A DNA stretch of 37,234 nucleotides from an uncultured Pelagibacteraceae bacterium (lineage in GTDB: Bacteria > Pseudomonadota > Alphaproteobacteria > Pelagibacterales > Pelagibacteraceae): positions 1-37,234 of the forward strand of contig CACGKR010000007.1 in assembly GCA_902573705.1 (NCBI GenBank), in the 5' to 3' direction. Each line of letters starts with the position of its first letter. The stretch's first letter is position 1. The notes under the pieces are model-generated. The model was not told where the DNA came from. It was given only the letters and a program-made list of their open reading frames with translations, and did no database searches. Positions 5,786-35,955 of the stretch are shown piece by piece. Both the position numbers and the translations under genes were made by a program.

Positions 5786-8350
5786 ATGCTAAATCCTTTA
5801 AGCTTTTTCTCAAAAATCATAAAATCTAGTAATCAAAGAGAACTTGATAAAATATCTAAAATTGTTACAAAAATTAACTCTTTAGAAGAGACTGTTAAAG
5901 ATTTAAAAGACGAAGATTTTCCAGAAAAGACGGACCAATTTAAAAAAAGAATTAAAAATGGAGAAACTTTAGATGAAATACTGCCTGAAGCCTTTGCACT
6001 TGTCAGGGAAGCTTCTAGAAGAAAGCGAAATGAAAGACACTTTGATGTGCAAATAATTGGGGGGATAGTTCTTCATCAGGCGAAAATTGCTGAAATGAAA
6101 ACAGGTGAGGGAAAAACATTAACGATTACACTTGCAGCTTATCTTAATGCACTCAACGAAAAAGGAGTTCATATTGTAACAGTCAACGACTATTTAGCAA
6201 AAAGGGATTCTCAAGAAATGGGAGAAATTTATAATTTTTTGGGTCTTAGTTCGGGTTTCATTAATAATGAACAAAATGATATTGAAAGAAGGAATAACTA
6301 TAATTGTGATGTTACATACGCAACAAATAGTGAACTTGGATTTGATTATCTAAGAGATAATATGAAATTTTCTCAAAATGAAATGGTTCAAAGAGAACAT
6401 TTTTTTTCAATCGTTGATGAAATAGATTCATGTTTAATAGATGAAGCAAGAACACCTTTAGTAATATCAGGTGCTGCTGAAGACAAAACAAATCAATATT
6501 TATCTATCGATAAATTAGTCAAAAAATTAGATAAAAAAGATTATGAGATTGACGAAAAAGATAAAAATATTCTCTTAACAAATGAAGGTATAAATAACAT
6601 TGAAAGAATTTTTTCTACTGCAGGGATTTTAAAAAATAACAATTTTTATGATCCAGAAAATTTAAATTTAGTTCATCATGTAAATCAAGCTTTGCGAGCC
6701 AATCATTTATTTGTAAAAGGTAAGGATTACATTGTTCAAAATAATTCTTTAAAAATAATTGACGAATTAACAGGTAGAATTCTTGAAGGCAGACGGTTCG
6801 GTGATGGATTACATCAAGCGCTGGAAGCTAAAGAAAAAATTGACATTCAAGCTGAAAATCAGACATTAGCATCAATTACTTATCAAAATTATTTTAAATT
6901 ATACAAAAAAATCTCTGGATGTACTGGTACTGCAATTACAGAAGCAGCAGAATTTTTTGAAATTTATAATTTACCAGTAATTGTAATCCCAACTAATAAA
7001 AAAATGATAAGAAAAGATTTAAATGATCAGATATTTCGAACTGAAAAAGAAAAAAATGATGCCATTATAAAAAAAATAAGTGAAAGCCATAAAACTGGAC
7101 AGCCTCTTTTAATTTTTACTTCTAGTATTAACAAATCAGAAGTCTATTCTGCTCTATTAAAAAAAGAGAATATTAAACATGTTGTCTTAAACGCCAAAAA
7201 TCATAAAAATGAGGCCGAAATTATTGCCAATGCTGGAACAGAGGGATCTGTAATAATCACTACTAGTATTTCTGGAAGAGGTGTTGATATACAGCTTGGT
7301 GGTAAAAAAGGTTCTATAGAAGATGACAAACTTAGAGAAAATAAAGAAAAAATTAAGACTATTGGTGGATTATTTGTCATTGGAACAGAAAGAATGGAGT
7401 CAAGAAGAGTCGATAATCAAGCAAGAGGAAGATCTGGTCGTCAAGGTGATGAAGGTCATTCGGTTTTTTATGTAAGTCTTGAAGATGATTTAATGAGAAT
7501 TTTTGGATCAGAGTCGATGAATAACATATTAGAAAAATTAGGTCTAAAAGATGGAGAAAGTATTGACCACCCATGGATTAATAAAGCTTTAGAGAGAGCT
7601 CAACAAAAAGTTGAAGCAAGAAACTTCGATATTAGAAAAACTTTGATTAAATTTGACAATGTTCTTAATGATCAAAGACATGTGATTTTTTCACAGAGAA
7701 AAGATGCAATGAATAGTAATCAAATTTTTGAGTATTCTGAACAATTTTTAGAAGAGATTTTACAAAATTTAATTCATCTTAAAACTCAGAAGCTATCAAG
7801 TCCAAAGAGTAGTGAATTTGACAATAAACTAAGATCTATCTTGGGAAAAAATTTTAATGAAGACGAATTTAAGAATTTTATTTCAGCTAATGATCATGAT
7901 TTTAAAGAAAATATAACAAAAAAATTCAAAGAGTCTCGCGAGGAAAGAATTAAATTTATAGGAGAAGAGCAGTCCAAAGAAATTGAAAAAAGAGTGTTTT
8001 TACAATCAATTGATATTAATTGGAAATCACATATTCAATATTTAGAACAACTAAGACAAGTTATAGGTTTAAGATCATATGGACAAAGAGACCCTTTAAT
8101 TGAATATAAGAAGGAAGCTTTTAATTTATTTGAAAATTTATTAGATAAATTGAAACTTGATTTTATAACGATTCTAATGAATCTTAAAGTTATTGAAAAA
8201 ATTCAAGATGAAAGTTTTAAAGAAAAAAATTCAAAAATTATGAATAACCCTAAATGTCTTTTATTATTAAAAAAAGATCAGAAGATTTCTCGAAACGATA
8301 GATGTGAGGCGACTGGAAAGAAATTTAAAAATTGTTGCGGTGCGTTATAA
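5786..8350 (+). CDS. secA: Preprotein translocase ATPase SecA
   Basis: Motor ATPase that pushes unfolded preproteins through SecYEG. The 854 residues compare with 901 in E. coli. Walker A is MKTGEGKTL (GEGKT at 107-111). The DEAD-type Walker B is in SIVDEIDSCLIDEARTPL. The second motor domain carries ISGRGVDIQLGG and the QARGRSGRQGD arginine-finger region. The scaffold and C-terminal helical domains follow. The C-terminal SEC-C zinc motif is altered: RNDRCEATGKKFKNCCG has one Cys and one residue fewer than the usual CxCGSGKKYKxCH. It is divergent from argJ, and its last 6 nt overlap the convergent accA. Confidence 0.97.
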   Translation: MLNPLSFFSKIIKSSNQRELDKISKIVTKINSLEETVKDLKDEDFPEKTDQFKKRIKNGETLDEILPEAFALVREASRRKRNERHFDVQIIGGIVLHQAKIAEMKTGEGKTLTITLAAYLNALNEKGVHIVTVNDYLAKRDSQEMGEIYNFLGLSSGFINNEQNDIERRNNYNCDVTYATNSELGFDYLRDNMKFSQNEMVQREHFFSIVDEIDSCLIDEARTPLVISGAAEDKTNQYLSIDKLVKKLDKKDYEIDEKDKNILLTNEGINNIERIFSTAGILKNNNFYDPENLNLVHHVNQALRANHLFVKGKDYIVQNNSLKIIDELTGRILEGRRFGDGLHQALEAKEKIDIQAENQTLASITYQNYFKLYKKISGCTGTAITEAAEFFEIYNLPVIVIPTNKKMIRKDLNDQIFRTEKEKNDAIIKKISESHKTGQPLLIFTSSINKSEVYSALLKKENIKHVVLNAKNHKNEAEIIANAGTEGSVIITTSISGRGVDIQLGGKKGSIEDDKLRENKEKIKTIGGLFVIGTERMESRRVDNQARGRSGRQGDEGHSVFYVSLEDDLMRIFGSESMNNILEKLGLKDGESIDHPWINKALERAQQKVEARNFDIRKTLIKFDNVLNDQRHVIFSQRKDAMNSNQIFEYSEQFLEEILQNLIHLKTQKLSSPKSSEFDNKLRSILGKNFNEDEFKNFISANDHDFKENITKKFKESREERIKFIGEEQSKEIEKRVFLQSIDINWKSHIQYLEQLRQVIGLRSYGQRDPLIEYKKEAFNLFENLLDKLKLDFITILMNLKVIEKIQDESFKEKNSKIMNNPKCLLLLKKDQKISRNDRCEATGKKFKNCCGAL

Positions 8351-32694: not shown

Positions 32695-34143
32695 TTATGC
32701 GTCTGAATATTTTTGCTCTAAATTCATGACATAATCGTTGATTCCATCTAAAAATTTAAGTTTTTCATCAACTGTTTTAAATGAAAACATTTTGTCATCA
32801 TTTTCTCTAATTTCATCACATTCTGAATAAAAAGCTGAAACCGTCCACCATTTTTCTTTATTGGTACTTAAAATTCTAGATGCTATTCTTCTTTTAATTT
32901 TCTTGTGAATTTCTTTTGGTAAAATTTCTGGAGCTTCATTGTATATGAGGCTATGACCAAAGGTGACTAGTCTATCATCTTTAAACTTATCTAATAAAGA
33001 TAATCTTTCTTTCCAATCTGAAGAATGAAATTTTTCAAATAATGGAACATCTTTATTGAATGTATCAAAACCTCCAGAATAGATTGTCTCCTCAGGTTCA
33101 GCATCTTCTTGCGATGCTGTTTCCATTTTATCCTCTGCTGCTTCTTTCAATATATTACATATATCTTGAGAAAATTTTTCATTAGATTTCATCAATTCCG
33201 CTCTTTTATTTAATAAATTAATTCCAATTTTTTTATAAGGATCTATTTTTAAGCCTAAACTTTTATCTAAAATTATTGGAGCTTTGTTGGATTTTATTGT
33301 TTTATAAAAACGAGGTGATTTTCTCATTTCTTTTTTTAAATCTTGGTAATTCAATTTTTGTAATTCTTCAATATTTGCCGATAAATTTACTACTTGCCCC
33401 CATTTATAAACTGGATGCATACATGAGTTTGGGTGTAATGGAGCAACTAAAAATAAATAATTTTTACCAAAAAAATTTTCATTAATAGTAAACATTTTTT
33501 CTTGTTTTATTAAATTTTCAACGACAACTTTACTTTTAGTCTTTAAATATTCGTGCCACAAATCAGGTTGTTTGTTTTTTAATAGACCTAAGACTTTAAC
33601 AGTTAATTCAGTGTCAAAAAGAGCTCCATGGGCTCCTGAAGAGTCAAAGCCATTAAGTCTTGCTAATGACTCTAATTTCATAGATTTATTTCCTTTAAGG
33701 TTGAGCTCAGTTTTTAAAACATTTTCATCAATAGCAAATGCTGCTTTAATCATGTTTAACGCATCATGTCTTGCATTGCCCTCTGTATTAATAAGATATG
33801 GTTTTCTTAATGATTTAAAAAACTCTCTCCTAAGAATTTCATCATCGAAACCGACCGAGCTGAATCCCATAAAAGTTGCGGGAGACCATTCGCGAAATTT
33901 TTTTTCTACTTGAGCAATCATTTGGTAATGACTTAAGTTGCCTTTAGTAATCAAATCAACGTTTGACTTGTTGATACATAAAGCAGTAGCAGATGGAACT
34001 CGATCTTGTGGAATTCTACATCTTGCATTAAATCTTTCTTTTTCATTAAAATTTTCATCTAATAAGATTGCTCCAATCTCAATCATAGTGGCCCAATCAA
34101 GTTGGGCCGAATCTGTCTCAATATCCCAAACTACATAATTCAA
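32695..34143 (-). CDS. sbcB: Exodeoxyribonuclease I
   Basis: DEDDh 3'-5' exonuclease that degrades single-stranded DNA. The 482 residues match E. coli ExoI (475). Exo I is VVWDIETDSAQLDWATMIEIGA, Exo II lies in FMGFSSVGFDDEILRREFF, and Exo III is SGAHGALFDTELTVKVL with the H-x4-D pair. The SH3-like and C-terminal helical regions follow (RMuC-independent, e.g. LDKSLGLKIDPYKKIGINLLNKRAEL). Its ATG overlaps the stop of the upstream nuclease gene by 4 nt (ATGA-type coupling). That makes rmuC, the PD-(D/E)XK gene and sbcB a single DNA-end-processing operon. Confidence 0.94.
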   Translation of the reverse strand: MNYVVWDIETDSAQLDWATMIEIGAILLDENFNEKERFNARCRIPQDRVPSATALCINKSNVDLITKGNLSHYQMIAQVEKKFREWSPATFMGFSSVGFDDEILRREFFKSLRKPYLINTEGNARHDALNMIKAAFAIDENVLKTELNLKGNKSMKLESLARLNGFDSSGAHGALFDTELTVKVLGLLKNKQPDLWHEYLKTKSKVVVENLIKQEKMFTINENFFGKNYLFLVAPLHPNSCMHPVYKWGQVVNLSANIEELQKLNYQDLKKEMRKSPRFYKTIKSNKAPIILDKSLGLKIDPYKKIGINLLNKRAELMKSNEKFSQDICNILKEAAEDKMETASQEDAEPEETIYSGGFDTFNKDVPLFEKFHSSDWKERLSLLDKFKDDRLVTFGHSLIYNEAPEILPKEIHKKIKRRIASRILSTNKEKWWTVSAFYSECDEIRENDDKMFSFKTVDEKLKFLDGINDYVMNLEQKYSDA

Positions 34144-34826
34144 TTTGCCATCCTTTGTGAGTAAAATTGTTCAACTTTTTCTAAAAATTGGTTTTGATAA
34201 TTTATTAATCTTTCACCTCTAACCATAAATCTTTGAAAAATATTATCCTTAGTACATAAAAGGATTGCCACTTGAGTAATATTCGATCCATGAACTTTAT
34301 TGTGGGCTAATGAATATGCTGCGCACTGTAGATAATAATCCTCAATCCACTCATCTTTTTTTGGTTTGTTGCTTTGTTTAAAGTCTATGATCGTTTCTTT
34401 ATTTTCGTAAATACCAATACAATCTGCAGCACCTGCATATTTTCCCGGGTAATATAAAGTTGCTTCACATCCCCAGATTTCACTTAATTTATCTCTTAAT
34501 CCGTTTTCTATAATTTGATCTGCCATCATTTTTTCACGAGTGTTGTCTCCAAGTAAATCCATATTTAATTTTCCAAGCAAAAATTTTTCTAAATAATCAT
34601 GCATAGAACTTCCACGACTTGTTGCTTCTCTTGAAATAATTTCAGCTTGTTTATGACCAACTCTGTTTTTCCATTCAAGTAGTTTTGCTTTTTTTTCTTC
34701 AGACTCGGTTGCTTTTAAAATTGTTGTAACTGATGGAAGATTTTCCTCATTAACTGAATAATGTCTTGAACCGTGTACAATTGATCTTGTAGATTTCGGA
34801 TAAATAAATTTATTATTCCACTGCAT
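34140..34826 (-). CDS. PD-(D/E)XK exonuclease, MGME1-like
   Basis: Probable single-strand-acting DNA exonuclease. From the ATG at 34826 it has 228 residues; a TTG at 34895 would overlap rmuC. The nuclease core is plain: GSSMHDYLEKFL (motif I region, 72-83), E121, D135 in YAGAADCIGIY, then D148 and K150 in IIDFKQSNKPKK, and Q167 in YYLQCAAY. N-terminal LPSVTTIL (30-37) with a later LLEWKNR also matters. From memory, human mitochondrial MGME1 has the same series (PSVT, LLERWK, YIGLLDCVAEY, VIDWKTSEKPK, QVVAY). Similar proteins also occur in phages. The overlap with sbcB and proximity to rmuC suggest DNA repair or degradation of linear ends. Confidence 0.82.
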   Translation of the reverse strand: MQWNNKFIYPKSTRSIVHGSRHYSVNEENLPSVTTILKATESEEKKAKLLEWKNRVGHKQAEIISREATSRGSSMHDYLEKFLLGKLNMDLLGDNTREKMMADQIIENGLRDKLSEIWGCEATLYYPGKYAGAADCIGIYENKETIIDFKQSNKPKKDEWIEDYYLQCAAYSLAHNKVHGSNITQVAILLCTKDNIFQRFMVRGERLINYQNQFLEKVEQFYSQRMAN

Positions 34827-34863: not shown

Positions 34864-35955
34864 TTAATTTTTGAACTGTTTATTTCTTTCAACAAATTTT
34901 TCTACATTTTCTGTTTTAACAGCTTTCTCAACCTGTTCGGGATCTTTTATATTTTCTAAAGTTCTGTTAATTGATCTTGCATCAGTACCAAACTTATCTA
35001 CCACACTCATAGCTTCCTCTAATTTTTTTCTAAGTGTAATAATATTATCAAAATGTTTTCCAAATCTGGTAGTGATAGTTTTGAGATGATTATATATTTC
35101 TGTAGCTCCTTTTTGAACTTTAAGAGATTGAAAACCCATATGTAAGGATTGCAAATAAGCTGAAAGAGTATTTGGGCCACAAATTACTATTTTGTATTTT
35201 TTCATTAATTCTTGGGTTAATAATTCTTTAGTGCTTGGATCCTGATATTCAGTTAATTCTTTATAAAGACTTTCTGTGGGCGCATATACTATTGCAAAAT
35301 CAGTCGTCTTGGGTGGAACAATATATTTTTCCTTAACACTTTTTGCTTTAGCCTTAAATGCACTTGCTAATTTTGTTCTAGCATCATCAACAGCTTTTTT
35401 ATCATCTGCATCGTAAGCATCTGTGATTGCTTTAAATTTTTCTACTGGAAAATGAGAGTCTACTGGAACCAAAATATCTCCTTGTAGCTTGATTGCAAAT
35501 TCAACATTTTCACTAGTATCTTCTTTCATCTTTACATTTGTTATAAATTGAGATGCTGGCAATAAATCTTTGATTAGTGCATCTAAAGAATACTCAGCAA
35601 GAGTTCCATATTTTTTAACACCTGCTAGAATTTTAGTAATTCCTTCTTGGCTTTGATTCAGTAATTGTACTTGCTGATTAAAATTCCCTACTTTTTCATC
35701 CACCTTAGTTAAAGCTTCTGTCATGTCTTTAGTAACTCCAGTTGAAAGAGCATTGAATGAAGTAGACATTGAGCCTAGAGATGTATTGATTGTGGTATTT
35801 AGACTATCTTTTAGTCGAACTATTTCGCTATTTAAATTTGCTATTTCTTCAACCTCTTTGCTATCACTCCTTGGTTTTGATTTTATATTTAAATATAAAG
35901 TTGCTAGAGTTGCTACTAGCAGTAAAATTAAGATAGTTAATAAAATTGTGTCCAT
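34864..35955 (-). CDS. rmuC: DNA recombination protein RmuC
   Basis: Membrane-anchored protein with a nuclease-fold core that limits DNA inversions and recombination in E. coli. The 363 residues start with a transmembrane helix (ILLTILILLLVATLATLYL). A coiled-coil region follows (about 35-115), then the conserved core: KYGTLAEYSLDALIKDLLP, GDILVPVDSHFPVEKF, DFAIVYAPTESLYKEL and VICGPNTLSAYLQSLHMGFQ. A short C-terminal helix bundle ends it. It heads the three-gene nuclease run. A 43-codon membrane ORF begins 30 nt away on the other strand. Confidence 0.94.
   Translation of the reverse strand: MDTILLTILILLLVATLATLYLNIKSKPRSDSKEVEEIANLNSEIVRLKDSLNTTINTSLGSMSTSFNALSTGVTKDMTEALTKVDEKVGNFNQQVQLLNQSQEGITKILAGVKKYGTLAEYSLDALIKDLLPASQFITNVKMKEDTSENVEFAIKLQGDILVPVDSHFPVEKFKAITDAYDADDKKAVDDARTKLASAFKAKAKSVKEKYIVPPKTTDFAIVYAPTESLYKELTEYQDPSTKELLTQELMKKYKIVICGPNTLSAYLQSLHMGFQSLKVQKGATEIYNHLKTITTRFGKHFDNIITLRKKLEEAMSVVDKFGTDARSINRTLENIKDPEQVEKAVKTENVEKFVERNKQFKN

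Follow-up and report, generated by a model that had tools for sequence, protein, structure and literature searches.

Gene Order and Conservation of the Locus

The window, i.e., the whole 37,234-nucleotide stretch of Pelagibacteraceae DNA analyzed here, codes on its minus strand for an MGME1-type PD-(D/E)XK nuclease. The gene follows rmuC and directly precedes exoI, after which comes trx:

34140..34826, minus strand: exonuclease gene of the MGME1/PHROG_298 family of PD-(D/E)XK nucleases (ATG at 34826, stop TGA at 34142-34140, 228 aa), identified from the ORF, the PHROG_298 and MGME1 matches, the fold, and dN/dS
34140..34143, minus strand: TTGA overlap, the nuclease stop TGA overlapping the TTG start of exoI
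32695..34143, minus strand: exonuclease I (exoI/sbcB), the next gene of the operon (Pfam Exonuc_X-T_C, 6.8e-11; RNase_T, 2e-8)
34864..35955, minus strand: rmuC, the preceding gene (Pfam RmuC, 2e-49), with about 37 nt between it and the nuclease

The TTGA overlap is kept in all seven close relatives inspected and suggests translational coupling between the nuclease and ExoI. It is absent in the other Pelagibacter subclade, where some 130-160 nt separate the two genes. The conserved nuclease operon announced in a preliminary description of this DNA is real: exoI accompanies the nuclease in all 80 of the loci retrieved from named Pelagibacter genomes, and in 77 of them rmuC, nuclease, and exoI are consecutive on one strand, with 37-91 nt between the first two.

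Some loci have been rearranged. In G119, G140, and G214 (L286, L287, L292), a divergent copy of the nuclease has a divergent exoI as its neighbor on the opposite strand, i.e., the linkage of these two genes outlives the rearrangement. In several lineages rmuC is swapped for very different RmuC-like proteins (19-30% identity) and the adjacency to exoI is kept, examples being L262 (G012) at 6944-7711, L265 (G101) at about 5792-6580, and L274 (G121).

Family Membership and Fold

By sequence, the best family match of the nuclease is PHROG_298, a family of phage exonucleases (3e-49), which is beyond what the preliminary description could see. That description had likened the protein to human MGME1 (Ddk1/C20orf72), the mitochondrial genome maintenance exonuclease 1, from the motifs LPSVTTIL, LLEWKNR, YAGAADCIGIY, IIDFKQSNKPK, and QCAAY. 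All five are present in the claimed order, and the likeness goes far beyond chance. A phmmer search with the window protein alone against 177,635 PDB sequences returns human MGME1 (1e-8) and nothing else, and a profile built from 21 sequences of the family finds MGME1 at 1e-27, the next PDB entry being at 0.27. Conversely, the human MGME1 domain matches PHROG_298 at 2.8e-23 (next family, 2e-4) and elsewhere only generic or very weak models, and MGME1 alone retrieves cyanophage, pelagiphage, and Agrobacterium-phage exonucleases from phage genomes at 1e-10 to 1e-11. Because both proteins match PHROG_298, and MGME1 on its own finds phage exonucleases, sequence comparison places both in a single family that consists mainly of phage proteins. 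No closer kinship to MGME1 is seen for the window protein than for the phage members: MGME1 reaches 58 bits with the host profile, and the profiles from marine viral contigs and from diverse named phages give it 69 and 99 bits, an order to which profile diversity adds and which shows only the absence of a special host kinship.

Members of PHROG_298 include proteins of pelagiphages HTVC023P and HTVC027P, T4-like GC 325 of cyanophage S-PM2, and gp128 of Escherichia phage CBA120. The window protein shares with the family full-length homology, active site, and size, and is 43-45% identical to the cultured pelagiphage proteins. In contrast to the phage copies, which belong to phage replication modules, the window gene is chromosomal, lies between rmuC and exoI, and falls in a clade of its own.

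The AlphaFold model of the window protein (pLDDT 93.9, pTM 0.90) retrieves MGME1 in the first nine places of a Foldseek search against solved structures (E 1e-12, TM 0.67-0.86), and its superposition on MGME1 gives Z 19.8-22.1 over 187-196 residues. The nuclease core starts about 30 residues after the protein start, M1 being nearly invariant in the alignment. The helical arch of MGME1 is present in the model, with predicted helices 43-56 and 58-83 corresponding to MGME1 143-160 and 162-187. The following positions align with MGME1 (residues numbered as in PMC6237815), all on the minus strand:

34314..34601, minus strand: active-site stretch, residues aligned with MGME1 and invariant in 141/141 host copies
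34601-34599, minus strand: H76, equivalent to MGME1 H180, the motif Ia histidine
34466-34464, minus strand: E121, equivalent to MGME1 E223
34424-34422, minus strand: D135, equivalent to MGME1 D238
34385-34383, minus strand: D148, equivalent to MGME1 D251
34379-34377, minus strand: K150, equivalent to MGME1 K253
34328-34326, minus strand: Q167, equivalent to MGME1 Q271, motif IV (QhXXY)
34316-34314, minus strand: Y171, equivalent to MGME1 Y275, motif IV (QhXXY)
34671..34673, minus strand: W52, equivalent to the pin Trp152 of MGME1, invariant in hosts and phages

Motifs I, II, and III, together with Ia and IV (E121, D135, D148-x-K150, H76, and Q167xxxY171), are thus complete in all 141 host copies and in 89-91 of the 91 viral rows; the catalytic pair D148 and K150 had been correctly named in the protein's own numbering. 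Fold, motifs Ia and I to IV, helical arch, and pin Trp152 (W52, in 141/141 host copies) are common to the window protein and MGME1, which nevertheless share only 22-24% identity. Compared with MGME1, the window protein has no mitochondrial N-terminal targeting extension and no equivalent of the C-terminal Glu344, and of the two-aromatic pin Trp152 + Phe173 it keeps the Trp and has T/S in place of Phe173 (T/S/L among hosts, mostly A among phages).

The likeness to MGME1 might reflect the superfamily fold alone, the protein being a nuclease of Cas4, RecB/AddA, or lambda/RecE type. The Pfam match is indeed the generic PDDEXK_1 (6.5e-4, below the Pfam cut-off), and there are weak matches to Cas4 (NCBIfam cas4, 13 bits for a cut-off of 65; PADLOC, 4e-5). 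Such an assignment is hardly credible, since the profile search finds MGME1 only, and RecE, Cas4, the AddA/RecB nuclease domain, and lambda exonuclease, which have the PD-(D/E)XK superfamily fold in common with it, differ in architecture, give no PDB sequence match at E<10, and superpose with Z of only 9-14 (RecE 13.8, an E. rectale exonuclease 12.6, Cas4 12.0, AddA 11.1, lambda exonuclease 9.3). The alignment has no cysteine among its invariant columns, so that the four conserved Fe-S cysteines of Cas4 are missing, and this stand-alone protein of 228 aa has no UvrD-type helicase fusion of the RecB/AddA kind. Hence, the placement in another PD-(D/E)XK clade, to which MGME1 would be no nearer than the remaining families and which the preliminary description named as refuting its view, is not what the structures give (MGME1 Z 22), and its assignment to PD-(D/E)XK nucleases of the MGME1 kind holds. 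In the literature searched, MGME1 is set against RecE, RecB, and Cas4 and described as having very little similarity with the other nucleases of the superfamily (PMC6237815).

Distribution among Bacteria and Phages

The family is widespread in phages, with matches in 953 phage records and at least 556 confirmed viral-contig stretches carrying it. There the gene is found in replication/recombination modules, near gp32 SSB, a UvsY-like mediator, DNA helicase, clamp, and primase; none of the 91 viral loci contains exoI.

Among bacteria, 197 genomes of the order were sampled, and the nuclease is present in 108 of the 117 Pelagibacter genomes and in none of those from the other five genera of Pelagibacteraceae. 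A class-wide sample (385 genomes, 276 genera) and a phylum sample (398 genomes, 213 genera, nearly all shown belonging to the same class) contain no ortholog outside Pelagibacter. Their weak matches sit inside ORFs of about 960-1220 aa, the size of AddA/RecB, and correspond to the nuclease domains of such proteins. Alphaproteobacteria are thereby well sampled, with about 780 genomes outside Pelagibacter, and other bacterial phyla to a lesser depth.

A few apparent exceptions do not change this distribution. The f2-family genome G145 (L289) seems to carry the gene, on contig C25, which is probably mis-binned because its folC and trx are Pelagibacter-like (72% and 92% to the window). The match in G069, also f2 (4e-4), is a 231-aa RecB/Cas4-like protein with a terminal cysteine pair and is no ortholog. 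The apparent absence from G205 is uninformative, as the contig stops inside exoI.

A distant copy (about 38% identity) is found in a Pelagibacter bin, on contig C67 of G057 (L285, 5865-6605), with no operon genes alongside. The weak grouping of this copy with jumbo phage PA5oct and the epimerase and dioxygenase-like genes next to it make C67 look like a phage contig. Relatives of the nuclease are also carried by two cyanobacterial plasmids, CP101713.1 (H161) and AP018199.1 (H162), of Synechocystis and Scytonema, and capture by cellular replicons may have taken place more than once.

Origin of the Pelagibacter Gene

The protein tree unites all Pelagibacter copies in a single clade (100/98), which is nested in a marine-phage clade (100/99); jumbo phages, cyanomyoviruses, and Ackermannviridae branch outside the latter. 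Resolution is poor at the base of the clade that joins host and marine-phage copies. The sister genera g8 and g9, which a three-gene tree (accD, folC, trpA) puts next to Pelagibacter, have an empty site: in G133, G118, and G148 the rmuC stop and the exoI start are some 10-15 nt apart, and no gene stands between them. Because the gene is restricted to Pelagibacter, nests in phages, and has an empty rmuC-exoI site as counterpart in sister genera, distribution, site, and tree are probably all accounted for if the Pelagibacter ancestor captured the gene once from a marine phage. The same three observations are what the direction of transfer is read from. The phage gene would have been captured once, on the Pelagibacter stem, into the short rmuC-exoI gap, and then retained under purifying selection. 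The median dN/dS of the nuclease is 0.079, and because of this value the protein is seen to work for its host.

It is thus highly probable that a phage-derived ssDNA nuclease of the MGME1 family has become fixed in the rmuC-exoI operon. The whole is best explained by a single phage capture of an MGME1-like ssDNA exonuclease that would work with ExoI and may stand in for exonuclease VII, a reading to which we assign a probability of about 0.75. Of the two origins that the preliminary description had considered, phage-to-host transfer is therefore the one that fits best, and an ancestral role linked to mitochondria is not supported for a gene confined to one genus and nested in phages.

One could reverse the transfer and have the gene arise in Pelagibacter before spreading to marine phages. 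Phages do take up host genes, and the open forks at the base of the clade would allow for this. Yet the family is also carried by the jumbo phages, cyanomyoviruses, and Ackermannviridae lying outside that clade, and the gene is missing from close sister genera whose empty site is intact, which makes host-to-phage transfer quite unlikely. Following the proposed capture, loss of the nuclease is ongoing in Pelagibacter. In G036 (contig C12, L288, 3810-4474) a frameshift has split the gene into two pieces that overlap (56% and 52% identity), in a locus where rmuC (83%) and exoI are present, and in its relative G121 the nuclease is absent.

MGME1 and Mitochondrial Ancestry

True homology links MGME1 with the SAR11 protein, and SAR11 was formerly proposed as a mitochondrial relative. 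One could then imagine an ancestral alphaproteobacterial gene that reached eukaryotes with the mitochondrial endosymbiont as MGME1 and whose bacterial original was kept by Pelagibacter. The sampled alphaproteobacterial genomes outside Pelagibacter provide no ortholog and only the weak matches in large ORFs. Even if SAR11 were the sister of mitochondria, the distribution would exclude vertical descent from the endosymbiont, unless the gene had been lost in every other sampled alphaproteobacterial lineage. The rmuC-exoI junction of sister genera is uninterrupted, the host clade is nested in phages, and the bit scores of MGME1 rise from the host profile to that of diverse phages. Moreover, later analyses reject SAR11 as the mitochondrial sister (PMC3264578, PMC3173451). 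We thus reject the mitochondrial reading on distribution, empty site, and tree, and consider a common alphaproteobacterial ancestor of the two genes very improbable. MGME1 matches phage homologs as well as it does the host protein. A specific sister relation between the SAR11 copy and MGME1 is not supported either, the host copies nesting in phages; MGME1 is the one eukaryotic sequence included, and its branch (5.65 changes per column) is too long for placement.

The Twinkle helicase and the mitochondrial RNA polymerase are of phage type. That phage-type proteins take part in mitochondrial replication and transcription is established (cited, e.g., in PMC5702650), and MGME1 looks like another candidate. 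It is conceivable, if somewhat doubtful, that MGME1 is of phage origin and that the family was domesticated twice independently, once for mitochondrial DNA maintenance and once in the Pelagibacter chromosome with ExoI, as a stand-in for exonuclease VII. Of most interest here, MGME1 could represent a further capture, independent of the first, out of the phage family that gave the Pelagibacter nuclease, and its sequence link to PHROG_298 makes a phage origin a testable question. The literature searched contains no link of MGME1 to PHROG_298-type phage proteins or to SAR11, although an earlier report may exist. The Pelagibacter and phage proteins also offer experimentally easy counterparts of MGME1, a disease gene.

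Likely Role in Pelagibacter

Few marine organisms are as abundant as Pelagibacter, whose set of DNA-repair genes is very reduced. A phage exonuclease fixed beside ExoI, in a lineage without ExoVII and AddAB, would partly explain how it handles ssDNA ends. The substrate and polarity of the enzyme, its coupling to ExoI, and its replacement of ExoVII we infer as follows. ExoI removes ssDNA from 3′ ends only. Exonuclease VII (XseA/XseB) is ssDNA-specific and attacks both ends. MGME1 trims ssDNA from both ends (PMC11551736), and the strand runs under its helical arch (PMC6237815). Because of its homology to MGME1, the Pelagibacter enzyme is most likely an ssDNA end-trimmer of the same kind. It is predicted to be a metal-dependent exonuclease in which a free ssDNA end threads under the arch to reach a two-metal PD-(D/E)XK site (H76, E121, D135, D148, K150) that cuts it. 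Nuclease and ExoI would be made together, if coupled as the overlap suggests, and since ExoI is limited to 3′ ends the two enzymes could between them remove ssDNA tails and flaps of either polarity in repair, recombination, and replication.

The nuclease may also replace ExoVII, an unrelated protein that would be its functional counterpart. ExoVII (xseA) is present in 52 genomes of the order and in no Pelagibacter of the order sample, and it is missing wherever the nuclease gene is native. Yet it is also absent from the nuclease-less sister genera g8 and g9; because these lack both, the loss of ExoVII did not force the gain of the nuclease. The complementarity of the two carries little statistical weight, since a single event may lie behind each gain and each loss, and we propose the stand-in role only tentatively.

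A different use of a phage-derived, DNA end-degrading enzyme would be defense, the host keeping it against phage DNA as an anti-phage or superinfection-exclusion nuclease. Its origin and predicted activity would suit this role, for which PADLOC gives only the weak Cas4-type similarity. Nevertheless, the gene is fixed nearly genus-wide in a housekeeping-type operon under strong purifying selection, instead of being patchy in a defense island, and phages themselves encode the same family, so that a defensive function is unlikely.

No AddA exceeds the cut-off in the order sample, where weak matches lie almost all in UvrD-like ORFs of 676-755 aa. RecJ is absent from the closed Pelagibacter genomes G102, G108, and G110, which have the nuclease. 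Together with the missing ExoVII, these absences agree with a stand-in role. A swap between nuclease and RecJ was considered and rejected: RecJ occurs patchily and not in alternation with the nuclease, and nuclease-less Pelagibacter genomes are often without RecJ as well.

Finally, three of the nuclease-less Pelagibacter genomes (G112, G160, and G022; L278, L279, L280) have a very divergent exoI (28-32% identity) outside the trx-folC locus. It is less like the exoI of the window than is the exoI of the sister genera (about 40%), and a nonorthologous replacement is possible.
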